Part shown: positions 1,127 to 16,901 of the stretch, piece by piece
Layout of the letters: each line of letters starts with the position of its first letter
Numbering within the stretch: the first letter of the stretch is position 1
DNA from: a virus
DNA length: 23,375 nt
IMG/VR virus record: IMGVR_UViG_3300048102_000246
Span: 1-23,375 of that record
Reading direction: 5' to 3' (one strand)
Position numbers and translations under genes: made by a program
The notes under the pieces: generated by a model
Told to the model about the DNA's origin: nothing
Databases searched by the model: none
The model's input: the letters and a program-made list of their open reading frames with translations, nothing else

Positions 1127-1532
1127 TGATATGATAGAGCAATTGGAAGTGAAGGCTTCTAAGTATGACAGTTTATTAAGTGACTTAGGTGAACTCTTAT
1201 CTAAGCATAGCGCAGAAGTAATTTCTAAAAATAAATTAGATGTAGTGACTAAACACAGCGATAAACCTAAGAGAAATTATCTTCTATGGAGATGTGAATT
1301 AAATGATTATAATAGAACGATGAAACCAAGAGGTATACCTATACAGACTGGATGCGGTAAATGGAGTATCTTTTCAACTAAAAATAAATTTTCTGACAAT
1401 AAAGAAATAATGCCTACTTGTCGATACTGTGGTCGCAAAAAACGCCTCACACTATCTACTCCTAATGTATATCAATTTAACAACCGTGAGGATGCTTTAA
1501 AGAAGCAATATAATTTTGGAGGAAACGATTGA
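1113..1532 (+). CDS. Zinc-binding-type protein with helical N-terminus
   Basis: A 139-residue protein from ATG 1113, preceded by GAGGGA. Residues 1-35 look like a helix or short coiled coil (MIEQLEVKASKYDSLLSDLG). The middle is Lys/Asn-rich. Cys61, Cys81, Cys103 and Cys106 (CRYCGRKKR) could form one zinc site. The gene is visibly more A+T-rich than its neighbours, with runs of AAA and AAT codons, which suggests a different origin or relaxed constraint. It overlaps the PC4-like gene by 14 bases and the ligase-like gene by one base (TGATG). Function unknown; a DNA-binding role is only a guess. Confidence 0.65.
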   Translation: MVSISDMIEQLEVKASKYDSLLSDLGELLSKHSAEVISKNKLDVVTKHSDKPKRNYLLWRCELNDYNRTMKPRGIPIQTGCGKWSIFSTKNKFSDNKEIMPTCRYCGRKKRLTLSTPNVYQFNNREDALKKQYNFGGND

Positions 1533-2983
1533 TGCTACTGGCTGAGGCATCTCAGATATCCGAAGAACTGCGTAACTATTATCGCAACTACATGCGAGAT
1601 AGTGAGAACCGTTCTCAATACTTTAACAAGTTGATAGATACAGTTAGCCTCGCAGTGCGTGATTCTATAGATGACTTGAACCAACTAATAGATATGTTCT
1701 TCCCTTCCTATTCTAAATATCCAAGACAGTATGTTTCTTTTCGAGACCTGAGAGACGATGTATGCAAGAAGTTGTCAATCTCTCCTTTGGTTTGGGATGA
1801 AGCACTGGCAGGTAAACCGATGGTGCCACTGTTAGCACTTGAATCCCCAGAGTACGGAGGCGACGGATTGACCGTCAAGCAAGGACTCAATCTAATGTCT
1901 CGAATAAAAGACCTAGGCTTCCTCGAAATTGCCAGCAAAATAAATGAGAAAGAAGCATTAGTATTCTGGGCGAGAGCCACAGGTGAAAGACCACCCATCC
2001 CTATCAATCGCTTTTTACAAATAATATCCTATGTAGTTGGCGAGAATCCTCAAACATTACAATCAATCAATATCCTACTCCAAACGATGCTACCGGCAGA
2101 GATAGCACAAAGAATGATTGGTACTCAGAAACCAATCGAAGTAAGAACCATGCAACCGGGTCAGCCATTTGTTGGTCCGGTTTACAAAGCATGGGACAAA
2201 TTCACAACTCCTACAGATGTATTTGTAGAAGTGATATCCAATTCAAGAAGATACTTACACATCACTGAGTTTCCAAAGGGTAACTTCAAAGGTGTTCTTT
2301 ATGATAGGCATCGGCAACTTATGGGTAAGCCTCTCAGCCTACCTATTGAACAGGAGGCTATCTTAGAAGTAGAAGTAGATGGGTTGGATATTAAGTTCGT
2401 CACTGATATATTGTCGTTAGACAAAGACTGGGATATTCACAAATCAGATTATAGGGACAGGGTGAATAAGTTGGAACAATTGAATTTAAGTAAGCCTGTG
2501 AAATCTGGTAAGTTCGTTTCTAACGCTACCGATTTTACTAATATGTTAGAGACCATAGAGCCCACTGAAAGACTGAGGCTTACTAACACTGACGGCATAG
2601 TTGCCGGAGGGCAAGGTGGCTGGCTAGTAATGAAAGACGCATTCCACATACAGTTGCTCGTTAACGCAGTAAAGCGTGACGAAGAATATGATACCTTCGT
2701 AAGATTATCTGCATTAGACGGTTATGAGAGTTATGAAGTCGGGCAAGTTAAATTAACCGTCTCGGTTGCACAACATCTCCGTCAAAGGTTGGCACAACAG
2801 GGAGTGCTTGCTGGACAAGACTGGTTACCAGTTGACGAATATGGAATGGTGGTAGTTATGGAAATGAAAGAATTTTCTTTACAAGACCTTTCTGTCACTG
2901 ATGGTGATATAAAATACCTTGATGATGACTTGGGATTTTCCGATGTTTCTCAACTAACAGACTTGATAGAAATGAGTGACTGA
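1532..2983 (+). CDS. ATP-dependent DNA ligase-like protein, probably inactive
   Basis: A 483-residue protein. ATG 1532 follows GGAGGA at 1518-1523. By eye it has the archaeal ligase order: helical DNA-binding region (1-200), nucleotidyltransferase region (about 205-370) and OB-fold region (about 370-455). VFVEVISNSRRY at 230-241 aligns with motif I (VEYKYDGERV), placing Ile235 where the AMP-accepting lysine belongs. EAILEVEV at 275-282 fits motif III with Glu281 kept. DGIV at 354-357 fits motif IV, but the lysine after it is replaced by Gly. GGWLVMKD at 362-369 fits motif V with only the second lysine, Lys368. The OB-like part has LSALDGYESYEVGQVKLTV. Residues 50-57 (NQLIDMFF) resemble a PCNA-interacting box with Asn for Gln. 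It could be a structural or regulatory ligase relative, or a misassigned fold. Confidence 0.5.
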   Translation: MLLAEASQISEELRNYYRNYMRDSENRSQYFNKLIDTVSLAVRDSIDDLNQLIDMFFPSYSKYPRQYVSFRDLRDDVCKKLSISPLVWDEALAGKPMVPLLALESPEYGGDGLTVKQGLNLMSRIKDLGFLEIASKINEKEALVFWARATGERPPIPINRFLQIISYVVGENPQTLQSINILLQTMLPAEIAQRMIGTQKPIEVRTMQPGQPFVGPVYKAWDKFTTPTDVFVEVISNSRRYLHITEFPKGNFKGVLYDRHRQLMGKPLSLPIEQEAILEVEVDGLDIKFVTDILSLDKDWDIHKSDYRDRVNKLEQLNLSKPVKSGKFVSNATDFTNMLETIEPTERLRLTNTDGIVAGGQGGWLVMKDAFHIQLLVNAVKRDEEYDTFVRLSALDGYESYEVGQVKLTVSVAQHLRQRLAQQGVLAGQDWLPVDEYGMVVVMEMKEFSLQDLSVTDGDIKYLDDDLGFSDVSQLTDLIEMSD

Positions 2984-3020: not shown

Positions 3021-3956
3021 ATGATTAGAATGAACCTACGAGAGAAGTACAGACCACAGACCTTAGCAGACCTAGCAGGATGCTCTGAGTTTATTACTTC
3101 TGCTGAGACATGGACAATAGAAACATGCCCTGCCAACATTCTACTTGTTGGCCCTCCCGGTGTCGGTAAGACCAGTGCTGCCATTGCTTTGGCCAAGGAT
3201 TTACTTGGAGAGTTCTTTAACTCGGTCAACTTTAGAGTTACTAATGCAAGTGACGAAAGAGGTATTGACGCTGTCAGAGAACTAAAACAGATTAGTAAGA
3301 GCAAAGCACTTGGTGCTAGTAGACGCATCGAGTTCCTAGATGAGTTTGAAAGTTTCACTGCACCTGCTCAAAAAGCACTTCGTCAAGTAATGGAAGAAAG
3401 TCACAAGAACACTATCTTTATTCTGACAGCCAATGACATTGGTCCTATTCACAATGCAATCAGAGACCGTTGTCTTACATTCGTGTTCAACCCTATTGAC
3501 CCTTATGATACTGAAAGATTAGAGATGATTGTCAATAAAGAAGAAATGCCTAAACATTGGAAAAATCACTTACCTAACTTAATCAAATTCGCTAACGGCA
3601 GTCTAAGACAGTCGATAGATATACTTGATAGTCTACCTAAAGAAGCAATCGCTCTTGAGGATAGAATACGGAAGGATGGAGAGTTTCTAAATAAAGCGGC
3701 ACTTAATCTGATGAGTTCAGATTATACTAAATTGACCGCTTATCTCAAGCAAGCCATAGAGTCGGGACAAGGGCGATTCTATATACTGAAAGGTTTGCGC
3801 TTTCGTGCCAAGTCGCTTATGGAAAGCGAAGACGATTGGTACAATTTCATGTTCACTTACGGAGAGTTTGTTATGATGGCTCAGCAATGGCCCGATGATG
3901 ACTTGTCGTTTGTGGAATACTTTGTAGCAAAACTAAAGAAAAATATGGAGGAATAA
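3021..3956 (+). CDS. rfcS: Replication factor C small subunit (clamp loader)
   Basis: A 311-residue AAA+ ATPase that would load the PCNA clamp onto primed DNA. It opens with the RFC signature LREKYRPQTLADLAG, and has Walker A GPPGVGKT (Lys50), Walker B EFLDEFESF (Asp107, Glu108; archaeal RFC usually has LDEAD), sensor-1 TAND and an IRDRC box in place of the family's SRC, keeping the arginine finger. The C-terminal third is the collar region. Two starts are possible: ATG 3021, which fits a leaderless message from the TATA element, and ATG 3030, which has GGAGATGA at 3017-3024 as an RBS. No large subunit is visible in the window, so the loader is either homomeric or completed by the host RfcL. 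Confidence 0.92.
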   Translation: MIRMNLREKYRPQTLADLAGCSEFITSAETWTIETCPANILLVGPPGVGKTSAAIALAKDLLGEFFNSVNFRVTNASDERGIDAVRELKQISKSKALGASRRIEFLDEFESFTAPAQKALRQVMEESHKNTIFILTANDIGPIHNAIRDRCLTFVFNPIDPYDTERLEMIVNKEEMPKHWKNHLPNLIKFANGSLRQSIDILDSLPKEAIALEDRIRKDGEFLNKAALNLMSSDYTKLTAYLKQAIESGQGRFYILKGLRFRAKSLMESEDDWYNFMFTYGEFVMMAQQWPDDDLSFVEYFVAKLKKNMEE

Positions 3957-3958
3957 TT

Positions 3959-5209
3959 ATGGAAGAAAATAATGGAACCAAATGGCCAGAAGATGTGATT
4001 GAAAGACTGAATGGGTATGCTGAGCGAACCGGCATCAAGTTGGGGGAAGCCGCCAACAAATTCAACAAGTGGTTGAAAGATGAGTTTGCAGTAGAAAATC
4101 CATTCGATGAAGACCCATTTTATCTAAGTCAGTGGAGTGAACAATTCGTGATAGAGAATAGAAACGAAAGTGCAGGTCGTCAGCAAGACACTATCACTTA
4201 TGTCGGCATGTTTATTGGAATTGAAGACACTGAAAGAGATAACCGAAAGGGTATGTATGACAGAGCAATCAACATGTTCAAAACTAACAGAGATAGAGCA
4301 ATTGACGAAGGTCACATTGGTATTCTAACTGCTAAATCTGGTAAGTGGCACCTCAATGGTAAAGAGACAAACGACAGGGTTCAAGGTAGTGACCTACCTT
4401 GGTACGGCTTTGAGTTTGACGACATGATTCTGTGCCTAATGGCTGAAAGAAACAACGAAAGAAAACCCATTGCACCCACTAGTATCAGTAGAACTGCTTA
4501 CTTCTTGGGCTCACCGGAAAGTGGTGGTGACATAAAGAAATGGTCAATCAGCCTTCAAGGAAAGTCTATGAACGCTGGTTACGAGAAGTGGGTAGCGAGT
4601 CGAATAAAGGTAGTAGAGCCCAAGAACAAAGACCAAGACATTTTGTATACCAATCGCAACTTCCACGAAACAGTTGAATACACTGACTCTTGGCTACCTG
4701 AGCATCTTAGAGTAGCCTTTAGCGCAGAGAGACTTCTAATCAACGGTGACATGCATGGTGAGTATGTAGAGTTAGGTAACTTACTTGATGCTCACGCAGC
4801 AAAGAAAATCACTACAGCCAATGGTATGACAATCAACCCTGTCGTAATCACATATGGTTCAATTACTTATCTGAACAGAGAGCCGATGGAAAGCGAGTAT
4901 GACCCGACTGGTCGCTCGTATCGTCTCAGCATCTATCGCCAGAATGTAGACCCGGTGACAGTCTGGGTATCTGGTAGAATGCACGATGAAGACAGAGTGT
5001 TTGAATACAAAAACGCAAGGGGTGAATGGGGTCACTACAATGAAAAGACCAATGTTATCGTAGTCGGTAGATTGAGACTACGACCATTCAACAATGAAAT
5101 GCAACCAAGCCTATCAGCGCTTGGTATTTACATTCCACACAGAACTGCTCGCCCTGCGGGTGGAAGTGGGAACACAAGCCTAAATCAATTTGGAGGAGAT
5201 GAACAATGA
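3959..5209 (+). CDS. Candidate single-stranded DNA-binding (RPA-like) protein
   Basis: A 416-residue soluble protein starting at ATG 3959 after ATGGAGGAATAATT. I do not see a diagnostic motif. The first 45 residues look like a helical ribbon-helix or UBA-like segment (PEDVIERLNGYAERTG, LGEAANKFNKWL). The remainder is beta-rich, with strands typical of OB-type barrels near 55-130 and again near 290-395 (DPVTVWVSGRM, TNVIVVGRLRLRPF). It ends in a Gly-rich acidic tail, FGGDEQ, as many SSB proteins do. Placement between the clamp loader and a RecA-family ATPase supports a ssDNA-binding role. This is inference from position and shape; it could be another replication accessory factor. The stop overlaps the next ATG (ATGA). 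Confidence 0.4.
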   Translation: MEENNGTKWPEDVIERLNGYAERTGIKLGEAANKFNKWLKDEFAVENPFDEDPFYLSQWSEQFVIENRNESAGRQQDTITYVGMFIGIEDTERDNRKGMYDRAINMFKTNRDRAIDEGHIGILTAKSGKWHLNGKETNDRVQGSDLPWYGFEFDDMILCLMAERNNERKPIAPTSISRTAYFLGSPESGGDIKKWSISLQGKSMNAGYEKWVASRIKVVEPKNKDQDILYTNRNFHETVEYTDSWLPEHLRVAFSAERLLINGDMHGEYVELGNLLDAHAAKKITTANGMTINPVVITYGSITYLNREPMESEYDPTGRSYRLSIYRQNVDPVTVWVSGRMHDEDRVFEYKNARGEWGHYNEKTNVIVVGRLRLRPFNNEMQPSLSALGIYIPHRTARPAGGSGNTSLNQFGGDEQ

Positions 5210-6240
5210 GTGGATGGGATGCATTACTAGGAGACGAAGCACAGCCAGTAACTACAACTCAGCCGGTTGCACCAGCAGCCGCTGAGCCTGTGGTTCAAGA
5301 AAACATAGAGCAGAATATTAAGGAGAAGTTAACTCCTGAGACCTCTACTGAATTTATCAGTAGGTTCCCTGCTATTGCACAGGAAATGAAAGAGCAAGCG
5401 AAAGCGCCTGCTATACAACCTAGTGCTACTTTCATGGGCGTAGTTGGTCACGAAGGTACTGGTAAGACTGGTCTGGCTATGGATGCTCACAAGCATAAGC
5501 ATGGAGATTCTCTATGTATTGTAATTGACCACGATAACGGTGGCCTATCTTGTAAGCAGGCTCACTACAACAACGACCCTGCCTTCCGTATATTCTCGCC
5601 TTGGGTTATGCAACAGGAAGACAAGACTGCCTACAACTACTTACTCAGTTACAACCGAGTCATGGAACTTGCTAAGTTTGCTGTAGAATACGCAGAGAAT
5701 CAGTACAAGCCGGGCTTTGAAGGACCGATGCTCAAATCATTCATCGTCACTGGCGTTGACCAGTTTGATGAGATGTGTATTACCTGTATGAAGATTTACG
5801 ACTTGGACATGACTGCTACTAACGCTGTCGAAGCCAGTCACTCCAAACTCAACGCCGAGATTGGTTGGAACTGGAATATTCGTGCTACAAGATTCAAGCA
5901 ACTAACTGCTCAGTGTCAAAAACTGAACAGACTAGGTGTTGATGTCTATTGGGAGACTCATCTTAAAGAAGACAAAGATGGCAAAGTAGGGTTTGACGGA
6001 TGGAAGTTTGCTTGGCATGCCAGTGGTAACAAAGACCTGTTCCAGATACTATGGTGTAAAAACAAGTATATGAGAAACAATGATGGTTCTTTGACTGGCG
6101 AAGTTAGATACACTGCTGAGTTCTTCAAGCAGAAAACTAACCCAAACTTATTGAACCAAGAACGACTTTACTTCGTAACTAAGAAGGGTGAAGATGCACA
6201 GTGGTACGGTTTACCTGAACTAAGAGACGGTGTAATCTGA
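5206..6240 (+). CDS. RecA/RadA-superfamily ATPase (Sak4-like recombinase)
   Basis: A 344-residue P-loop protein. ATG 5206 follows GGAGGAGATGAACA and overlaps the upstream stop. The first 75 residues are Pro/Ala/Gln/Glu-rich and probably disordered. The ATPase core starts with Walker A GHEGTGKT at 81-88 (Lys87), continues with a CIVIDHDNGG strand, and has a hydrophobic Walker-B-type strand, SFIVTGVDQFDEM, near 178-190. A later VYWETHL strand matches the L1/sensor position where RecA-type proteins have a polar residue. Such single-domain ATPases in viruses pair with ssDNA-binding proteins for recombination or annealing. The N-terminal helix-hairpin-helix domain of cellular RadA is absent, so a Sak4/phage-type RecA is more likely than a full RadA. 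Confidence 0.65.
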   Translation: MSGWDALLGDEAQPVTTTQPVAPAAAEPVVQENIEQNIKEKLTPETSTEFISRFPAIAQEMKEQAKAPAIQPSATFMGVVGHEGTGKTGLAMDAHKHKHGDSLCIVIDHDNGGLSCKQAHYNNDPAFRIFSPWVMQQEDKTAYNYLLSYNRVMELAKFAVEYAENQYKPGFEGPMLKSFIVTGVDQFDEMCITCMKIYDLDMTATNAVEASHSKLNAEIGWNWNIRATRFKQLTAQCQKLNRLGVDVYWETHLKEDKDGKVGFDGWKFAWHASGNKDLFQILWCKNKYMRNNDGSLTGEVRYTAEFFKQKTNPNLLNQERLYFVTKKGEDAQWYGLPELRDGVI

Positions 6241-6245
6241 GGTGA
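6239..6245 (+). promoter_or_regulatory. Strong Shine-Dalgarno deciding the PCNA start
   Basis: GAGGTGA at 6239-6245 is complementary to the usual archaeal 16S rRNA 3' end (CACCTCC core). It overlaps the upstream stop codon and also covers an in-frame GTG at 6242. A TTG at 6251 sits five bases downstream, the normal spacing. This makes TTG 6251 the better initiator and the GTG part of the ribosome-binding site. Confidence 0.6.
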
Positions 6246-6250
6246 TTGGC

Positions 6251-7012
6251 TTGGTTAGTTTCACAATCGACAAAGATAATTTCAATCACTTTATCGGGAG
6301 TTTTGGTAAAGATTTGGCAGACATTGCTATTGACGCCAATGTCGGAAGTATCTCTGCGGCGGTGGGTAAATCTACGCATTATATCTATAGAAAGATAGAC
6401 TGCGGGGTAGAAAAGGGTGGTAAAGTATACATCACTGACATCCCCAAGTTGAAATCCTTTCTTAGTAATGTGAAGTCAAAGGATTTAGAAATTAACCAAG
6501 AAGGTAAGACAGGTACGCTTCATGTAAGGTGTGGTAAAAGTAGTTTACAATTACCGACCTCTTCACATATAGAATCACAGAAGAGAGTCGGCATTATGCA
6601 GAAGGCTATCGAGCAATCCAAGCAGAGCATGTGGCGTATGTGGTTTAACAGTCCGTTGACGCATCATGCTACGCTCAACTCACTTGAATTGAAACCGGCA
6701 ACGGGCTTCAAGAAAGTCTTAGGTGACAAGTATTCTTGTAAAACCGAATTCGATTCAGACGGCTCAGAGTTTATCGTAAGAGGTGGTAAATCAGCAACGG
6801 GTAAGATGTTCGTCAGAGCGACCTTAACGCAACTCGAAGCACCTGCTACATCAGCAAGGTCGGCTTTTGATAAGTGGCTACCTGACTTATTATCTAACAT
6901 ACCTAACGGTGATGTAGAGATTCACACTGCTAACGAAAGCGTGCTGATTGTAGTGCAACCAAGCACAGATTTCACCATGATAGTCATCGACCAAGAATAC
7001 GAGGAGGACTGA
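6251..7012 (+). CDS. pcn: Sliding clamp (PCNA)
   Basis: A 253-residue protein if it starts at TTG 6251; this gives an N-terminus, MVSFTIDKDNFNHFIGSF, close to the PCNA opening (short strand, then a helix with FK/FN..I..). PCNA usually has 245-250 residues. The second half shows the expected repeat: LTHHATLNSLELK, then FIVRGGKSATGKMFVRATL, then SARSAFDKWLPDLLSNI, then VEIHTANESVLIVVQ, matching the strand-helix-strand order of a clamp domain. The C-terminus ends FTMIVIDQEYEED rather than the usual LAPRIE. It would form a ring that tethers the polymerase and other partners to DNA. Neighbours (clamp loader, PolB) support the call. Divergence is high and the match is by eye. Confidence 0.68.
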   Translation: MVSFTIDKDNFNHFIGSFGKDLADIAIDANVGSISAAVGKSTHYIYRKIDCGVEKGGKVYITDIPKLKSFLSNVKSKDLEINQEGKTGTLHVRCGKSSLQLPTSSHIESQKRVGIMQKAIEQSKQSMWRMWFNSPLTHHATLNSLELKPATGFKKVLGDKYSCKTEFDSDGSEFIVRGGKSATGKMFVRATLTQLEAPATSARSAFDKWLPDLLSNIPNGDVEIHTANESVLIVVQPSTDFTMIVIDQEYEED

Positions 7013-7208: not shown

Positions 7209-7265
7209 ATTCGTGAATGGTTAGATTTGTTATTTAGACTGATTACCTTTGACTGGTGGGATTGA
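7206..7265 (+). CDS. 19-residue peptide directly before polB
   Basis: ATG 7206 follows a good RBS and the frame ends at TGA 7263-7265, one base before the polB ATG. The peptide begins MIREWLDLLFRLITF and ends DWWD: strongly hydrophobic and amphipathic, with three Trp. It may be a real micropeptide or a translational leader that delivers ribosomes to polB. At this length coding cannot be proven from sequence alone. Confidence 0.3.
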   Translation: MIREWLDLLFRLITFDWWD

Positions 7266-7266
7266 T

Positions 7267-9618
7267 ATGATAATTGATATCTTCAAACCAGACCCTACAG
7301 GTCCCGACCATATCTACAAGAGATGGCGTGACGCTGAGGGTAATTTGATTGAAGAAACTGTTACCGACTTCGAGCCTTACTTTTGGATTTCAGCCAATAC
7401 TTCTAAGCAAATCGCTAACTCGGTCATCGACCAGTTTCCCGGCTCTCGTATAGACTGGGAAGACAAAGCGGTTGGTCTTAGAGACGATGAACCCTTAGTC
7501 AAGGTATATGCATACAGGCAATCAGATGTCAAGAGTATGGCCGCCATGTTCAGAAAAACATGGGAAGCAGACCTCAGTTTACAAGACAGATATCTGATAG
7601 ACAATGTCAAAGAAATGCCCGAATGGAAACCGAGAGTGTGGCACTTCGATTTAGAGTGGGATGTCAAGACCAAAGAAACCACGGTGATGGCGGTCATAGA
7701 CAACTACAACAATCGCCATGTGGCTTTTTGTTGGAAGAAGCACAATCCTAATGGTCTACATGATAATGATTATCAATTAGAGAATAAAATCGTAGAGTAT
7801 GAAGTCGACGGAACTATTCAAGAGTTTACCTATGACAGATACCTTTACGGTTCAGAGCAAGAAATGCACGATGCCTTTCTTTACTACTTAGACGAATGTA
7901 ATCCTGATGTATTCGTAGCCCACGCCATAATGTGGGCTGACTTACCTCACTTGATTGATAGACTAAAGCGATTCAGAAAACTGAGTCCTCTGGGTAGAGT
8001 TATGAAGCCTATGAAAAGCGGTGCTTATGACTATGTAGCCCAGCCTATCGTAGGTAGGTTATGCTTTGATACTGCTGCACCAGTAAGAAGCGGTAGCGGC
8101 TTTGAGCGTGTATGGAAGGATAGTGGTCAGCCACAACTTAAGAATTTGAAATTAGACACCATCGCTAAAGCCTGTAAATTGGGTGGTAAGTTTGACATGG
8201 ATGTCAAGACAGGTTGGACAGAAAGGTTTGATGACTATGTTGATTATTGCATGCAAGATACCTTATTACTGAAAAAGATAGACGAAGGTAACCATGTACT
8301 AAATTTCTTTTTATCGCTACAAAGATTATGTGGCGTTTCTTTTGAATCGTGTCATAATGTCACACGGTTCGCCAAAGGTCTGTTGAACAGACGAACACAC
8401 TGGAAGGCACCGAGTCGCTCTATGCAAGAGAAGCAAGAGTATGAAGGTGCTTTCATTCCACCTCCCAAGCCCGGTAGATATGAGGGTGTGGCTTGTGTAG
8501 ACTACAAGGGCTTGTACCCTAGTATCATACTGAGCCATAATCTATCGTGGGAGACCCAAGTTCCCAAGCACATGGCAGAGGAAGACAATGTTAGACAATT
8601 ACCTGATGGTACTTGTTGGAGACAAGATGTCCCTGCACTGCTACCTAAGATTGTTACGGAGATGTTTGAACTCCGTGACAATTACAAAAAGAAAATGCGA
8701 GAAGCCCCCACTGAAAATGAGCGAAACGGATGGAACACATTACAACTTGCAGTAAAGCGTGTAATGGCTTCCTTCTATGGTATGACCGCCAGTGCTTACT
8801 GGGGCTGGTCAGATTTTGACATAGCGAGTGCTATTACAGCCTGTGGTCGAAGAGCAATTAAGGCTCTAATGGAAGAGTCAGAAAAGGCCGGTTACAAGGC
8901 ATTGTACGGTCACACAGACTCTGCCTTTGTCGAAGTACCTTTCGATGAAGCACCCGCTTTAGCCAAGCATCTAACTGAGACCATACAGCGTGACCATGAA
9001 GCGAGCCATCTCATTGTAGAGTTCGAGGCTTACATGCCTTACTGGATTGTCGGCGGTAAAAATCTGTACTACGGTATCTGTTCTTGGCCGCCAGAAGACG
9101 AAGGTAAAAAGAAGTCAGCAAGATGGGGTAAAATCAGCACTTTGTCTCCGATATCGAAGGACTTGGAAAACGATATACTCACTGCTATCTGCACTGGGGC
9201 TGACGAAGAAAAGGTCATCAGTATAGTAAGACCGTTGGCTAAGAAAATAAAGCGAGGAGATGTCGATATAAAGGATATCTCTACTACTACTAGACTACAG
9301 AAAAGGTTGACAGAATACTCAGATACTGCTGGCGGCGCTGTTAAAGCGGCTCGGTATTACAATCAACATATAGTCGGGCGTAATCACTTTGGGGAAGGAG
9401 ACAGCGTAGACTGGGTATATATTGCCAAGCCGAAAGACGGTTTACCTTCTACTCCAGTAGTCGCTTACGAAGATGTCAGAGAACTAGACGGTTTCGTAAT
9501 AGATTATGATTTGATGGTTGATAAAATTGTCAAAGACAAAATAAAACCTATATTCAGAGCCTTAGATTGGGACTTAGAAAGAGCAAGCGGGGCGGCGATG
9601 CCTAAACAATATTGGTGA
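7267..9618 (+). CDS. polB: Family B DNA polymerase with 3'-5' exonuclease
   Basis: A 783-residue replicative polymerase, the usual length for archaeal PolB. ATG 7267 follows GGTGGGA; an in-frame TTG at 7249 adds six residues of poor quality. Exonuclease motifs: Exo I DLEWD (Asp128, Glu130), Exo II region AHAIMWADLPH with Asp225, and Exo III YCMQD (Tyr327, Asp331). Polymerase motifs: A, DYKGLYPS (Asp412 to Ser419); B, KRVMASFYG (Lys497 to Gly505); C, YGHTDS (Tyr547 to Ser552), with catalytic Asp551. Two positions are odd: motif B has Ala501 where KxxxNSxYG has Asn, and motif C has His549 where YGDTDS has Asp. Both metal-binding Asp residues and the exonuclease acids remain, so activity is likely. 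The neighbouring clamp gene suggests processive synthesis with it. Confidence 0.95.
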   Translation: MIIDIFKPDPTGPDHIYKRWRDAEGNLIEETVTDFEPYFWISANTSKQIANSVIDQFPGSRIDWEDKAVGLRDDEPLVKVYAYRQSDVKSMAAMFRKTWEADLSLQDRYLIDNVKEMPEWKPRVWHFDLEWDVKTKETTVMAVIDNYNNRHVAFCWKKHNPNGLHDNDYQLENKIVEYEVDGTIQEFTYDRYLYGSEQEMHDAFLYYLDECNPDVFVAHAIMWADLPHLIDRLKRFRKLSPLGRVMKPMKSGAYDYVAQPIVGRLCFDTAAPVRSGSGFERVWKDSGQPQLKNLKLDTIAKACKLGGKFDMDVKTGWTERFDDYVDYCMQDTLLLKKIDEGNHVLNFFLSLQRLCGVSFESCHNVTRFAKGLLNRRTHWKAPSRSMQEKQEYEGAFIPPPKPGRYEGVACVDYKGLYPSIILSHNLSWETQVPKHMAEEDNVRQLPDGTCWRQDVPALLPKIVTEMFELRDNYKKKMREAPTENERNGWNTLQLAVKRVMASFYGMTASAYWGWSDFDIASAITACGRRAIKALMEESEKAGYKALYGHTDSAFVEVPFDEAPALAKHLTETIQRDHEASHLIVEFEAYMPYWIVGGKNLYYGICSWPPEDEGKKKSARWGKISTLSPISKDLENDILTAICTGADEEKVISIVRPLAKKIKRGDVDIKDISTTTRLQKRLTEYSDTAGGAVKAARYYNQHIVGRNHFGEGDSVDWVYIAKPKDGLPSTPVVAYEDVRELDGFVIDYDLMVDKIVKDKIKPIFRALDWDLERASGAAMPKQYW

Positions 9619-12162: not shown

Positions 12163-12401
12163 TGACATTGCACTATTGTGAGATTTGCGAAAAGCGTGTC
12201 AGGGCCACCAAAAGTATGAGAGATAGATACAAATCTATCGAAGACCCAGTTATTATCTGCCAAGTCTGTAGGTACAAGAAACTAGTTCCGAGAAATCTTC
12301 TATGCACACGGACTATCAAAAGTGGTAGACTGTGCAACGGTGTAAGGTTTGATAGAAACATAGACAAGTGTGCATTATGCAGGAGGAAGAGTTATGAGTA
12401 A
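12159..12401 (+). CDS. Double zinc-ribbon protein
   Basis: An 80-residue basic protein starting at ATG 12159 or 12162, overlapping the primase stop, with GAGGAGGAAGAG upstream. Eight cysteines fall in two sets: Cys7/Cys10/Cys34/Cys37 and Cys49/Cys59/Cys71/Cys74. This would hold two zinc ions in tandem knuckles. Arg/Lys are frequent, so nucleic-acid binding is plausible. Family unknown. It overlaps the start of the XPF-like gene by eight bases. Confidence 0.65.
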   Translation: MMTLHYCEICEKRVRATKSMRDRYKSIEDPVIICQVCRYKKLVPRNLLCTRTIKSGRLCNGVRFDRNIDKCALCRRKSYE

Positions 12402-13128
12402 ATCTCCTCTAATAATTGACACTAATGAAAGAGGACCTCTTCATGATGCTGTTATTCGTGCCGCTGAAAGAGAAGGCTTCTCAGTAAAGAAAGAGCATTT
12501 GCAGGGCATGGGAGATTACAAAGCAGGTAATGCTCACATAGAGTGTAAAAGTATATCCGATTTGATTCAATCTACATTCAAAGGTCATCTACAAAGACAG
12601 ATAGAAAACTTGGATGCTAACTGTGACAGAGTAGTTTTGCTGGTACACGGTGACATTGCTAAGTATGTCGCAATGTGCAAAAACCAAGGTAGACCTACTA
12701 GTTATCCTAAAGTTTTAGACATGATGTTAGGTATATTTGCACGACTTACAGCGGATTTTGATTGTCATATTTATCGAGCAAAAGACTACACTGAAGCAGG
12801 TATTTTCATAGCCAAGTTACATGCTAAAATGAACAAACCTGCTAGCAAGCATGGTGCAAAAGCGATAACAAGAGTGAGCACTAATGATGTACGAGCAGAT
12901 ATGCTTGTTACAATACCGGGCTTTGGTCCAGATTTAGTGGATAAATTACTTGAAAAATGTGGGTCTATTGAAGAGATGTTGTTTCCCGAATCACTTAAAC
13001 AAGTGAGAGGGTTAGGAACAACTCTGCGACAAAGATTACTAAATGTACTGACATCCGAAGAACCGATTAGGATTCAGAAAACATACAACAAGAGAGGGAA
13101 AGGAAATGATGGAACACAGAGCAGATAA
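12394..13128 (+). CDS. XPF/ERCC4-type structure-specific nuclease
   Basis: A 244-residue protein; ATG 12394 follows GCAGGAGGAAGAGTT. Residues 1-150 are an ERCC4 nuclease domain: IIDTNER (Asp9, Glu12), GDYKAG with Asp41, and IECKSISD (Glu50, Lys52, Asp56), which matches ERKxxxD with Cys51 for Arg, followed by HLQRQIENL. Residues 175-232 look like a tandem helix-hairpin-helix: MLVTIPGFGPDLVDKLL and QVRGLGTTLRQRLL. Archaeal XPF has this nuclease-HhH2 core, often after a helicase domain that is absent here. Such enzymes cut flaps, forks and branched DNA, useful for recombination-dependent viral replication. The short basic tail (KTYNKRGKG) may contact DNA. The next gene starts within its 3' end (23-base overlap). 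Confidence 0.85.
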   Translation: MSKSPLIIDTNERGPLHDAVIRAAEREGFSVKKEHLQGMGDYKAGNAHIECKSISDLIQSTFKGHLQRQIENLDANCDRVVLLVHGDIAKYVAMCKNQGRPTSYPKVLDMMLGIFARLTADFDCHIYRAKDYTEAGIFIAKLHAKMNKPASKHGAKAITRVSTNDVRADMLVTIPGFGPDLVDKLLEKCGSIEEMLFPESLKQVRGLGTTLRQRLLNVLTSEEPIRIQKTYNKRGKGNDGTQSR

Positions 13129-14539
13129 GTACGATTGCGTGAAACAATACCCTATACTGAAAGGGTATCTTGAGCATTTTAACCAAGTGAGTAAGAATAA
13201 TGAGATACCGGGCTTGATATCTTTCTTTTTCATACTGGGTCAAGCGGCAGTGCCTTATGTCAGGATACCTGTCGGAGGTAGTAACCTTGACCCAAGAGTT
13301 AGTATATTCTGGATTCAAGATACTAGGACAGGTAAGTCAGCAGCGTACCAAATCATAGAAAGAGTGCTAAAAGAATCAGGAATGAAAAGCGAAGACTATA
13401 ACTCTGGTAACGATGCAGCCTTAGTTGGTACACTAATCCCTGACCCTGAATTTGAAGGGCCAGTAAGAGACGCACCACAAATACCGAGGCCGGGTATATT
13501 GGCTGGTCGAAAAGGACTTAACTTCGATGAGGGTAGTGTAATCTTGAAGTCTGGTCAACATAATGAAAATACTACCCTATTCTTACAATCAGCACTAAAC
13601 TCAGCAGGTACTGGTCGTAACATACTTACTAAGCACATGGCAAGAGACACATTCAGTGTCAAATCTGAGGTATCTCTATGGATAACTACATACCCTCCGA
13701 AAGGTATCAAAGAGCATGTTCTTGACAAAGGTATTTTCCAGCGTGTTTTGACATACTGGAGGCATTGGACTCTTGAAATGAAGAAAGATATCAATCAATT
13801 ATTAGCGGAGGCTGTTTACAATATACCGACATACACTGTATCCTTTGAAGAGGTCGTAACTTTCTTTGAGGACATGAGGCGTAAACTGAAAAGAAGAGTG
13901 CTGGAACTATCTGACATTGCGCCACTTGAGTGGGATGAGATGTCAGAAGAAGACCAAGATGTAGTAGTGGGTAACTTGAAGCATTTAATGTTCCAGCCAG
14001 ACGAAGCCTATGTACCAGCACTTATGTCAGCCATTGATGATTATTACAGCGCAGTAGAAGTAATGAGTCCCGATAAACAGGGTATATGTTCTTCCTTTAT
14101 CATGGGTCTACAGAACTACACCAATGTACTAGCACATCATATGGCGATGATTGAAGGAACATGGGTAGTCAGAGGCGACCACATTGACATGGCTAAAGAG
14201 ATACTTTTAGACTTGTACGGTAACTTGATTCAATGGCTAGAGTCTGAAATAAACATCGGTGCCGGTGCTAGTGAAAAGAAGAAGATGGAAGGTTACTGGA
14301 TTAGTGCATTCGGTCAAGCAGAAAAGTTTGACTTTGACGACACTAGAGGTCACGGATGGGCTAAGAAGAAAGAGGTTATGGACAACTTTGGTAAGATAGC
14401 AAACTACAGTAGTCATGCTTCTATCAATGACAAATTCAAATTATATGGCAAAGAAATATTCAAAGATACTCGTGAAGGGGCGAGGATATTTATTAGGCTA
14501 AACAAAGATGTCAAGCAACCGAAAGGTGGTAACTCATGA
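13106..14539 (+). CDS. P-loop ATPase, candidate replicative helicase
   Basis: A 477-residue protein from ATG 13106, preceded by GAGGGAAAGGAA. The Walker A variant is QDTRTGKS at 71-78 (Lys77), lacking the usual first Gly. A Walker-B-like LNFDEGS follows about 65-70 residues later, then VSLWITTYPPKG (sensor-like), an FQRVLTYWRHW segment and a long helical C-terminal half. This order resembles DUF3987/D5-type primase-helicase ATPases, in which the SDE strand and an arginine near QR act in hydrolysis; it is not an MCM or DnaB by any motif I can see. Since no other helicase appears in this block, a role as replicative helicase or ATP-driven loader is plausible. The stop overlaps the next ATG. Confidence 0.5.
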   Translation: MMEHRADKYDCVKQYPILKGYLEHFNQVSKNNEIPGLISFFFILGQAAVPYVRIPVGGSNLDPRVSIFWIQDTRTGKSAAYQIIERVLKESGMKSEDYNSGNDAALVGTLIPDPEFEGPVRDAPQIPRPGILAGRKGLNFDEGSVILKSGQHNENTTLFLQSALNSAGTGRNILTKHMARDTFSVKSEVSLWITTYPPKGIKEHVLDKGIFQRVLTYWRHWTLEMKKDINQLLAEAVYNIPTYTVSFEEVVTFFEDMRRKLKRRVLELSDIAPLEWDEMSEEDQDVVVGNLKHLMFQPDEAYVPALMSAIDDYYSAVEVMSPDKQGICSSFIMGLQNYTNVLAHHMAMIEGTWVVRGDHIDMAKEILLDLYGNLIQWLESEINIGAGASEKKKMEGYWISAFGQAEKFDFDDTRGHGWAKKKEVMDNFGKIANYSSHASINDKFKLYGKEIFKDTREGARIFIRLNKDVKQPKGGNS

Positions 14540-14676
14540 GTTTCTGGGATATAGAATGTATATGCTGCGAAAGTGTATTAGGTGATAATATCGGAGGCTA
14601 TTTCATGGGTCACAAGGGTAAGAAGAGGATTGCTGTCTGCGATTGGTGCCTATCTTGTATGTCGGGGGATAACTGA
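14536..14676 (+). CDS. 46-residue zinc-ribbon microprotein
   Basis: ATG 14536 overlaps the previous stop (ATGA) and the frame ends at TGA 14674-14676, which overlaps the next ATG (TGATGA). Cys8/Cys11 (CICC) and Cys35/Cys38 (CDWC), plus Cys10 and Cys41, give a compact zinc-binding pattern around a Gly/Lys-rich loop. Both junction overlaps are the kind used throughout this strand, which supports translation. Function unknown. Confidence 0.55.
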   Translation: MSFWDIECICCESVLGDNIGGYFMGHKGKKRIAVCDWCLSCMSGDN

Positions 14677-15281
14677 TGAAGATGCTAGCGCTCGACATAG
14701 AAACTGCTAACTTTAGCCACGATATAGGTGGTTTTGGTCAGACGCATTTATTCGAGCCTACTGTAGTAGCCACATGGGATGGAAATCAAGGCGTGGTATA
14801 TTCCAACGAGTCGGTTTCTAAATACTTACCAGAGGGTACTGTAGTCAAAAAAATGCATCCTGAGATAATAGGAGACGACTTAGCCAAGCATGTCAGCGAA
14901 GGCGGTATGGTACTAGGTCATAATTTGAAAAACTTTGACTTACCTATTATCAGAGATGCACTTGATTGCTACACTGTTGGTGAGATAATGAAAAAATCCA
15001 CCGAGCAGGTTTTTGATACATCTGTTTTGCTGAAAAGTATAGTGGGTCACGCAGTGCCCTTATCAGATGCCTGTTATCACACTTTGAACAAAGGTAAACT
15101 TATGAACAGTCACGATGCCCCGATAGAGTGGCGCAAGGGTAATTACAGCAAAGTCGCTGAATATTGCTTGAAAGACGCTGAACTCGTATACGAACTTTGG
15201 AAACATGGTATGGAAGAAGGTTTCGTAAAGGCGAGATGTAGAAAAACGGGGGATGTCAAAGAATACGAGGTGGACTGGTAA
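14676..15281 (+). CDS. DnaQ/RNase H-fold 3'-5' exonuclease
   Basis: A 201-residue exonuclease. Exo I is LALDIETA (Asp7, Glu9), Exo II is GHNLKNFDLP (Asp88), Exo III is YCLKDAEL (Tyr163, Asp167): the YxxxD variant. This matches the RNase_H_2/PolB-exonuclease-like group of stand-alone nucleases. It would remove nucleotides from 3' ends for proofreading, recombination or host-DNA use; PolB has its own exonuclease domain, so a distinct role is likely. The start is ATG 14676, overlapping the preceding stop; the stop TAA overlaps the next ATG (TAATG). Confidence 0.85.
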   Translation: MKMLALDIETANFSHDIGGFGQTHLFEPTVVATWDGNQGVVYSNESVSKYLPEGTVVKKMHPEIIGDDLAKHVSEGGMVLGHNLKNFDLPIIRDALDCYTVGEIMKKSTEQVFDTSVLLKSIVGHAVPLSDACYHTLNKGKLMNSHDAPIEWRKGNYSKVAEYCLKDAELVYELWKHGMEEGFVKARCRKTGDVKEYEVDW

Positions 15282-15445
15282 TGTCAATGATAGTCTGCGA
15301 AGTATGCGAAAGAGATAATTGGTCAGGGATTAGATGCTCTAAACATAGAGTGTGTACTTCCTGTATAGATTCCATATTGGAAGAATATTTTGAGAGGGAA
15401 AATAATGAACGAAAACGAGAGCAACACAAGCGCAGTAGTGCATAA
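15281..15445 (+). CDS. 54-residue cysteine/histidine microprotein (half-RING-like)
   Basis: ATG 15281 overlaps the exonuclease stop as TAATG, and the frame runs to TAA 15443-15445, overlapping the chaperonin gene by 41 bases. Cys6, Cys9, Cys19, His22, Cys25 and Cys28 have the spacing CX2CX9CX2HX2CX2C, the first six ligands of a RING finger, but the last CxxC pair is missing. The C-terminal half is charged and helical (EEYFERENNERKREQHKR). It may bind one or two zinc ions. Function unknown. Confidence 0.45.
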   Translation: MSMIVCEVCERDNWSGIRCSKHRVCTSCIDSILEEYFERENNERKREQHKRSSA

Positions 15446-16901
15446 TATAAGAGCAGCAAAAAGAGCCGTAATGACGGTCAAGACAACACTTGGCCCGATG
15501 GGTATGGACAAGATGATGGTAGATGCCGGTGGTAATGTAATAGTTACTAACGACGGTGCCACTATTCTACAAGAGTTAGACATCAGTCATCCTGCGGCTA
15601 AAATGGTAGTCGAAGCGGCTAATACACAAGAGAACATCTGTTACGACGGAACAACCAGTACGGTAGTATTGGCCGGAGAACTACTAGGTAACAGTGAACT
15701 TCTGTTTAACAAAGGGCTTCATGCCAATATCATTTGTCGTGGTTACAGAAAAGCCTCTAAGTGGGCCACTGACCACATACAATCACTGGCTTTCAGAGGG
15801 TCTAAGCATCTCAGCAATGTAGCAAAGACTTCAATTACAGGCAAAGCGTTAGAATCTAGTGTAGAGCATGTCAGTGGATTATGTGTAGAAGCAGTCAAGA
15901 AAGCAGCAGGTGACTTTGAAAGAATTAGAGTTCTATGTCAACCGGGCGGTAGCCTAGATGATTCGTCTTGTTTTAGCGGTGTAGTTTTGCACAAAGAGTT
16001 CATGCTACCTGCCATGCCTACTTTGCCAAATGGTCAGGCTTTGCTAATTAACACTGGCTTGAGTGACATCAAAAGCGATGACAATGTTCAACTAAATCTT
16101 GGCTCTGCTGCTGAATACCAGCAATACAAGCGACAATCAGGTAGAGAGCAGTGGGTAGACAAAGCCAAAGCCATAACGAACCTTCTACCAGAAGGAGGCG
16201 TAGTATTTGTCAGAGACACTGTCCATGAAGTTGTAGGGGCTACATTAGCCAAGCATAACATATCCATGGTGCACAGAATACCTGAAAGTGACATGACAGC
16301 ATTAGCCAAGTTACTCAACACTACTATCGCTCATACCACAGAAGACCTACAAGAGGCGGTAAAATGCGACGCAGAGTGCAAGACTATTGGTGATATGAAG
16401 TATGTCGTAGTCAAGGGTGAAGGAGAAGTCACTACGCTTATTCTAAGAGGCGCTACTAAGCAAACTCTTGACGAGACTGAGCGTGGATTTGAAGATGCTC
16501 TCGGTGTAGTCTGTTTGGCTTACAACAGCGATTCAGTTGTCTATGGAGGCGGCTCTGCTTATCTCAATGCAGCGTTGCACTTACGCTCAAGGGCTGCGGA
16601 AGCAGGTGGCAGAGAGCAAATGGCTATCGACGCATTTGCTGACGCATTGGAGTCAATACCGGCTACCATTGCTGAGAATGCAGGTCATGACCCACTTGAC
16701 ACTATACTGACACTAAGAAATGAACACAAGGCGGGTAACACTGACAGCGGCCCAGATATAGAAAACGGCGGCGCTTGCTCGATGAAGGAACAAGATGTCT
16801 TCGAGCCACTTGATTTAGTCAAACAGGCTATTCAATCGGCCAGTGAAGTTACCATCAGTATACTACGAATCGACGACATCATCGGAAAGCGTGGCGAGTG
16901 A
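15405..16901 (+). CDS. ths: Group II chaperonin (thermosome/CCT-type subunit)
   Basis: A 498-residue subunit of a ring chaperonin that folds proteins in an ATP-driven cavity. ATG 15405 follows GAGAGGGA; an in-frame TTG at 15390 is less likely. Signatures: KTTLGPMGMDKMMVDAGG at 26-43, NDGATIL at 49-55 (Asp50), HPAAKMVVEAANTQ at 62-75, YDGTTST at 80-86 (Asp81; the family has GDGTT, so Gly is replaced by Tyr), LIRG-like LILRGATKQTLDETERGFEDAL with the catalytic-type Asp, YGGGSAYLNAAL, ALESIPATIAENAGHDPLD and a final ILRIDDIIGKRG. Group II rings carry a built-in lid, and the apical region here is present. Length is about 45 residues below host thermosomes, lost mainly at the two termini. It may serve virion or replisome proteins, alone or mixed with host subunits. 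Confidence 0.95.
   Translation: MNENESNTSAVVHNIRAAKRAVMTVKTTLGPMGMDKMMVDAGGNVIVTNDGATILQELDISHPAAKMVVEAANTQENICYDGTTSTVVLAGELLGNSELLFNKGLHANIICRGYRKASKWATDHIQSLAFRGSKHLSNVAKTSITGKALESSVEHVSGLCVEAVKKAAGDFERIRVLCQPGGSLDDSSCFSGVVLHKEFMLPAMPTLPNGQALLINTGLSDIKSDDNVQLNLGSAAEYQQYKRQSGREQWVDKAKAITNLLPEGGVVFVRDTVHEVVGATLAKHNISMVHRIPESDMTALAKLLNTTIAHTTEDLQEAVKCDAECKTIGDMKYVVVKGEGEVTTLILRGATKQTLDETERGFEDALGVVCLAYNSDSVVYGGGSAYLNAALHLRSRAAEAGGREQMAIDAFADALESIPATIAENAGHDPLDTILTLRNEHKAGNTDSGPDIENGGACSMKEQDVFEPLDLVKQAIQSASEVTISILRIDDIIGKRGE

Follow-up and report, generated by a model that had tools for sequence, protein, structure and literature searches.

The window analysed here is the complete 23,375-base virus record IMGVR_UViG_3300048102_000246 (positions 1 to 23,375). 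It carries a block of replication genes on one strand, among which the gene for the protein studied here, P0001, stands directly before that for a clamp-loader subunit:

1113–1532, + strand: small ORF of 139 aa, upstream of P0001, its stop overlapping the P0001 start; no Pfam match
1532–2983, + strand: P0001, the putative pseudo-DNA-ligase, 483 aa plus stop
3021–3956, + strand: clamp-loader small subunit, an RFC-S-like AAA+ protein directly downstream of P0001 (Pfam AAA, Rad17 and DNA_pol3_delta2)
3959–5209, + strand: protein that we take to be RPA-like, named from position, size and recall; no significant family match
5206–6240, + strand: RadA/Sak4-like protein (Sak4-like phrog_124, E 6.6e-6)
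6242–7012, + strand: presumably clamp-like protein, named from position, size and recall; no significant family match
7249–9618, + strand: family B DNA polymerase, PolB (PF00136, E 1.3e-35)
After PolB, + strand: PD-(D/E)XK nuclease, primase-like protein and ERCC4 nuclease, among others

The P0001 ORF is a real gene. It opens with an ATG at 1532 that overlaps the TGA (1530–1532) of the upstream ORF, with a GGAGG at 1518–1522 and an in-frame TTG at 1529, and closes with a stop codon at 2981–2983. Further along, the primase-like protein matched PF04104 at E 3.1e-4, below the family cut-off. The exonuclease domain of PolB itself likewise scored below the Pfam cut-off, and a separate 201-aa DNA-polymerase-exonuclease-like protein is encoded at 14676–15281 (phrog_403, E 3.2e-11). 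The window also encodes a thermosome-like viral group II chaperonin (15390–16901; Cpn60_TCP1, E 4.4e-130) and a 171-aa protein at 345–860 that matches phrog_624, a DNA binding protein (E 4e-56). The best 20 of 1,970 phage records matching PolB were all haloarchaeal viruses, at 24–26% identity. Viruses with the P0001 family apparently have archaeal hosts and are marine; a link to the magroviruses (Poseidoniales viruses), through gene content described in PMC10768690 and PMC12999244, is only a lead.

Relatives of P0001 were collected from IMG/VR by successive searches, which raised the number of loci from 6 to 20, 33 and finally 34; with the conserved RadA-like neighbour as query, 67 loci were obtained. 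An HMM of the P0001 family detected the gene in 51 of these 67, and in all 51 the RFC gene lies downstream on the same strand. Of the 16 loci without a homologue, 12 end before the gene would be reached (for L161, the first base lies beyond the end of the gene in L165; the other 11 cut-offs were judged by position) and four (L175–L178) come from a group that is further removed. The 51 homologue rows comprise 43 different sequences, of which three are partial, and reduce to 23 full-length sequences at 95% identity; the remotest homologues that were aligned share 42–47% identity.

Searches by sequence gave no indication of what the protein is. P0001 matched no ligase in Pfam, PHROG, NCBIfam or PDB sequences, where all its matches stayed at chance level, and no ligase family appeared even among the chance-level matches when 26 members of the family were compared with the curated profiles of Pfam and NCBIfam, and 32 with those of Pfam. 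A phmmer search of the PDB returned just chance matches to dihydrofolate reductase and kinases, and the family profile (A4) found no PDB chain. Neither P0001, the primase-like protein nor the protein at 3959–5209 had a tblastn match in the phage collection, and one pattern scan of genome contigs yielded no cellular relative of P0001.

We therefore turn to the predicted fold, since the profile comparisons described below are borderline or within the range of decoys. An AlphaFold2 model was built without templates from 32 viral homologues (alignment A8), an alignment that contained no ligase, and reached a pLDDT of 72.6 and a pTM of 0.43, the five models spanning pLDDT 72.6 to 52.6; an earlier fold from 7 near-identical sequences (pLDDT 35.7) was discarded. 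Foldseek matched the model to nine PDB entries at E ≤ 0.001, all of them DNA ligases or mRNA capping enzymes, with human LIG1 the best (E 4.1e-9), so the ligase fold that the first-pass annotation had proposed from a by-eye alignment was recovered from the predicted structure. Among predicted viral proteins there were 20 matches at E ≤ 0.001, of which 12 are named as ligases or capping enzymes, one is ‘uncharacterized’ and seven are unnamed; the lowest E-values belonged to a protein without a name (1.1e-10) and to the Halogranum tailed virus 1 DNA ligase (2.4e-8). Whole-chain Foldseek superpositions gave low TM-scores (0.24 by query) and high rmsd, as expected if the arrangement of the domains in a model of this pTM is uncertain. 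The model divides into three regions:

1532–2146, + strand: DNA-binding-domain-like helical region, aa 1–205 (model compared with LIG4, 4htp)
2147–2647, + strand: predicted nucleotidyltransferase domain without the catalytic lysine, aa 206–372 (model compared with LIG3, 10ye_L; column counts)
2648–2980, + strand: OB-like region and conserved tail ending SQLTDLIEMSD, aa 373–483 (lower confidence; tail at low pLDDT)

Superposed separately with VIA-align, residues 223–371 matched the nucleotidyltransferase domain of LIG3 (10ye_L) with a Z of 12.2 at 2.8 Å over 142 residues, and residues 1–204 the DNA-binding domain of LIG4 (4htp) with a Z of 12.0 at 3.6 Å over 181 residues. The alignment tool warns that for helical bundles a Z below about 13 can reflect a common arrangement, and the nucleotidyltransferase domain is therefore the stronger evidence of the two. 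Residues 226–372 also matched the m3G-cap-binding domain of snurportin-1 (1xk5; Z 11.4, 3.3 Å, 138 residues), which has a nucleotidyltransferase-like fold as in the P0001 model. Snurportin-1 is a non-catalytic cap binder, a eukaryotic import adaptor without the DNA-binding or OB domains of a ligase. In the OB-like region the strands and helices are at lower pLDDT, and some whole-chain alignments extend to 467–471 at high rmsd. As judged from the model, the match to ligases is thus clear in the nucleotidyltransferase domain, good in the DNA-binding domain and weakest in the OB region. The predicted order, a DNA-binding domain followed by the nucleotidyltransferase domain and, less certainly, an OB-like region last, is that of human LIG1, LIG3 and LIG4 and of archaeal ATP-dependent ligases (7sxe, 10ye, 4htp, 3gde and 2cfm). 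At the end of the protein (2927–2983, aa 466–483), Q474, L475, T476, D477, I479 and E480 are invariant in 32 of 32 aligned homologues; this low-pLDDT tail is a possible partner-binding motif.

Residues of the active site were then compared across the family. The counts below are over the 50 or 51 homologues that cover the region, which include near-copies, and both the register and the motif assignments were made by eye from the strands of the model and the alignments. Two sites are of particular concern:

2231–2236, + strand: codons of V234 and I235, candidate sites of the missing motif I lysine (Lys 0/50; strand-turn-strand in the model, 230–235/238–246)
2327–2329, + strand: codon of K266, the sole lysine of the domain that is invariant in the homologues (50/50)

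Genuine ligases have K-x-D-G-x-R as motif I, in which the AMP-accepting lysine is followed by an arginine five positions on (Lys+5) and a histidine nine positions on (Lys+9). No homologue has a lysine at either candidate column: position 234 is Val in 48 and Thr in 2, and position 235 is Ile in 34, Met in 8, Val in 6 and Leu in 2 (50 homologues each). The first-pass annotation had placed Ile235 at the lysine position and asked whether orthologues ever carry a lysine there. The absence of the lysine stands in either register; the exact position probably does not, because R239 and H243 are invariant (50/50) and, as the counterparts of Lys+5 and Lys+9, favour V234 over I235 at the lysine position. 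The two-residue turn of the model at 236–237 fits the Asp-Gly there, with V234 again at the site of the lysine.

Other catalytic residues have fared unevenly. E281, noted earlier among the residues that remain, is present in 50/50, its equivalence to the glutamate of FDGE being judged by eye, and E279, D292, W300 and R310 are also invariant (50/50 each); R259 is found in 44/50 and W364 in 47/51. Of the two lysines in the motif V KxK, the first is absent throughout (position 366, 0/51), as had been noted for Val366. The second, K368, had likewise been listed as remaining, yet it is Lys in only 34/51 (Asp in 11, Gln in 6) and is not conserved in remote homologues. For motif IV, in an uncertain register, Lys occurs at 351 in 4/51 and at 359 in 0/51; the motif more likely lies on strand 347–352, with its lysine replaced by T351, than at Gly359, the previous choice. 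The basic residues of motif VI are mostly replaced (by eye), and K266 falls just after motif Ia in the by-eye alignment. Relative to cellular ligases, then, P0001 has in common the motif III-type Glu, the motif I-type Arg and the motif V Trp (by eye), while it differs in lacking the catalytic lysine and the first motif V lysine, and in having no sequence-profile match.

A further line of evidence came from a related group of viruses, reached through the RadA-like gene of L177 and L178 at just 26% identity. Both encode a ligase that is recognized by PF01068 (E about 3e-37) and in which all motifs can be identified by eye:

L178, 1545–3074: canonical ligase of the related group, 509 aa (alignment A9)

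This protein carries intact DYKYDGNRYQIH, EGIIVKD, GWAKYK and LRFPR..RIRDDK. The gene order in L178, assigned by eye, is ligase, RFC-S, RPA-like, RadA-like, clamp-like, PolB (split), PD-(D/E)XK, primase-like and ERCC4. The two parts of the polymerase (L178:9504–11177 and 12310–13221) are ~1.1 kb apart, a split that recalls the PolB-NTD/CTD labels in a figure legend on the Aoguangviridae (PMC10768690). A scan with the related-group ligase added 21 loci. All 18 sequences that were aligned have the motif I lysine, within KYDGNRYQIH. In this set L178 also stands for L193 and L194, with which it is 100% identical; L210 and L213, both partial, are excluded, and several members are near-copies. In all 23 loci (the 21 together with L177 and L178; 21 contigs) the ligase gene lies upstream of RFC.

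The P0001 gene has the same neighbours on the same strand as this ligase gene, at a distance from RFC of 37–1456 bases as against 2.0–2.6 kb, and the two proteins are similar in length and occupy an equivalent place upstream of the block from RFC to PolB. P0001 corresponds in position to the lysine-bearing ligase of the related group, which keeps the motifs lost in P0001 and has no significant sequence match to the P0001 family. A tree was built from 41 RFC proteins, 97% copies and three unlabelled rows having been removed; a single branch with a support of 100/100 separated those from pseudo-ligase loci (32) from those of intact-ligase loci (9). This tree is unrooted and has very long branches between the groups; the direction of change, from intact to dead, is accordingly deduced from the fact that ligases in general carry the lysine. 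The fold in the model, the loss of the lysine from every homologue and the canonical ligase of the related group together uphold the original proposal of a ligase fold that lacks its AMP-accepting lysine.

Direct profile comparison with real ligases was less decisive. Using hhalign in local mode against 10 cellular ligases, full-length P0001 was equalled by 1 of 60 shuffled decoys, the nucleotidyltransferase domain by 6, the DNA-binding domain by 4, the OB region by 5 and the last two regions together by 8 of 60; in global mode, 2 to 43 of 60 decoys scored as high. Against the 18 viral ligases of the related group E was 0.13, with 9 of 100 decoys as high, and against cellular and viral ligases merged, 1 of 100. 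The family profile (A8) found nothing in the records of the related group. Several hhalign alignments set GKPMVPLLALE of P0001 on the PMLA motif of ligases, a different register. We rejected the register that places residues 94–105 on this motif, as this stretch of the model is mainly helical and the beta domain does not begin until 230. Homology to ligases consequently rests on the predicted fold and on synteny, and not on sequence alone.

The gene is not decaying. Compared with an 87% relative, P0001 had a dN/dS of 0.048, against 0.089 for RFC, 0.058 for the RPA-like protein, 0.070 for the RadA-like protein and 0.053 for PolB; dS in these comparisons was 1.3–1.7, close to saturation. Saturation was reached for the clamp-like gene and in most comparisons with two relatives that are further away. 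A dN/dS of about 0.05 indicates strong purifying selection. The pseudo-ligases are also strongly acidic, with a median net charge of −16.9 (range −22.7 to −10.0; 32 proteins) as compared with −1.4 (−6.5 to 3.5) in the 18 related-group ligases; the RPA-like protein of L178 itself has a charge of −25. This acidity fits docking to proteins somewhat better than clamping of nicks, and acidity of the whole proteome may contribute to it.

Loss of the chemistry, strong selection and location in a replication operon most likely point to a structural part of the replisome. On the strength of the predicted fold, the missing lysine, conservation and synteny, we consider it probable that P0001 is a pseudo-DNA-ligase kept as a non-catalytic component of the replisome while a ligase of the host seals the nicks; its place in the replisome is suggested by gene neighbourhood and conservation. 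The ancestor would have been a full-length ATP-dependent ligase of the archaeal/eukaryotic type, presumably active, which lost the AMP-accepting lysine and most other catalytic residues and retained the multi-domain body. This body and the acidic OB/C-terminal region may dock on the clamp, clamp loader or polymerase at the site formerly held by the ligase, nick sealing having been handed over to the host enzyme.

The main rival to such a scaffold is a sensor of nicks or 5′-phosphates, in which the dead ligase would encircle nicked DNA and mark or protect Okazaki junctions until the host ligase acts. The model retains a ligase-like DNA-binding region, and among residues assigned to motifs by eye, Arg239 (motif I-type) and Glu281 are found in 50/50 and Arg259 (motif Ia-type) in 44/50. 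The sensor is nevertheless the less favoured reading, given the strongly negative net charge relative to the related-group ligases and the absence of the second motif V lysine from 17/51 homologues.

Both a different nucleophile and a decoy, which the first-pass annotation had also offered, are less likely. P0001 could still be an enzyme if K266, or K368 where present, accepted AMP, or if it acted on DNA adenylated by another enzyme. K266 is indeed invariant (50/50), and the authors of PMC9638927 consider a back-up lysine for the residual activity (under 5%) of human LIG4 K273A. However, the lysines of motif I and the first position of motif V are missing throughout the homologues, the basic residues of motifs IV and VI are mostly replaced (by eye), K266 aligns immediately behind motif Ia, and 17/51 homologues have no K368; a different nucleophile is thus disfavoured, and we regard residual catalysis as improbable. 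A shade more doubtful still is a decoy or inhibitor of the host ligase or of a defence directed at DNA ends, acting outside the replisome. Such a role would suit a protein that looks virus-specific, no relative having turned up in the genome-contig pattern scan, yet P0001 is found inside the replication block at every locus checked and is as constrained as the polymerase. Counter-defence genes are often less constrained than that. That P0001 is an unrelated protein with a merely ligase-like predicted fold, as its weak or absent profile–profile signal might suggest, is very unlikely given that ligases and capping enzymes account for all nine PDB matches at E ≤ 0.001, that two domains match separately and that a canonical ligase stands at the equivalent genomic position in the related group.

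In addition, 48 contig records were searched with PF01068. The 46 outside the related group contained no ligase gene, only a ligase-like domain in a head-module protein: in 15 of the 46 a weak match fell inside an open frame of 1,803–2,013 codons, and it was present in all 14 records of at least 69 kb. Pfam could overlook a highly divergent ligase, just as it overlooks P0001. None of 15 large contigs matched PF01653, the NAD-dependent ligase family.

L073, 3116–9154, and L074, 5254–10854: giant head-module protein of ~1,900–2,000 aa, with the ligase-like domain towards its C-terminus

The giant ORF of L073 has a portal protein on one side and a prohead protease on the other, both identified by family matches; in L074, L191 and L192 the nearby protease was recognized by eye only. 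In the related group, G049 (L187) encodes an 838-aa protein with a canonical ligase domain (QEKYDGMRVQLHK) directly before a protease recognized by eye, one further ORF separating it from the likely portal; G048, the second record searched from that group, has no head-module PF01068 match within its 56 kb. The head-module ligase protein of the related group had no tblastn match in the phage collection. BLASTP of the G049 protein against all 15 domains of the P0001 clade gave E-values of 1e-22 to 6e-33 at 25–30% identity, and homology of the head-module domains is clear from these sequences. At the column of the G049 lysine, nine domains have Met, four Phe, one Leu and one Tyr, and the lysine is thus absent from 15/15; the column was read off printed alignments in two cases and located in the others by the same spacing after the GF.G.W anchor. 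One speculative and rather unlikely extension is that both ligase modules, of replisome and head, were switched off in one lineage and their bodies kept as structural parts; nicks would then perhaps be left deliberately, with the copy in the replisome reserving the site for a host ligase and the copy in the head recognizing nicks or ends in packaged DNA.

There is a laboratory parallel for a ligase without its lysine. According to PMC9638927, inactive human LIG4 (K273A) still promotes joining by another ligase, LIG3; like P0001 it lacks the catalytic lysine, and unlike P0001 it is a laboratory mutant in end joining rather than a conserved viral family. A literature search that reached few subscription papers found, among the matches listed, no description of a DNA-ligase pseudoenzyme conserved in nature as part of a replication module, an absence that carries little weight at that coverage. 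A study of magroviruses reports that nearly all of its genomes have a DNA ligase (PMC10160649). For annotators of such genomes there is a warning here, because the sole ligase domain visible to Pfam in the P0001 clade is the lysine-less one of the giant head-module protein. The P0001 family is probably a pseudoenzyme branch of the ligase family, and two groups of viruses with equal gene order, one with a lysine-bearing ligase and the other with a lysine-less one, provide a natural comparison. The clade thereby allows one to ask what a ligase contributes to the replisome beyond sealing.
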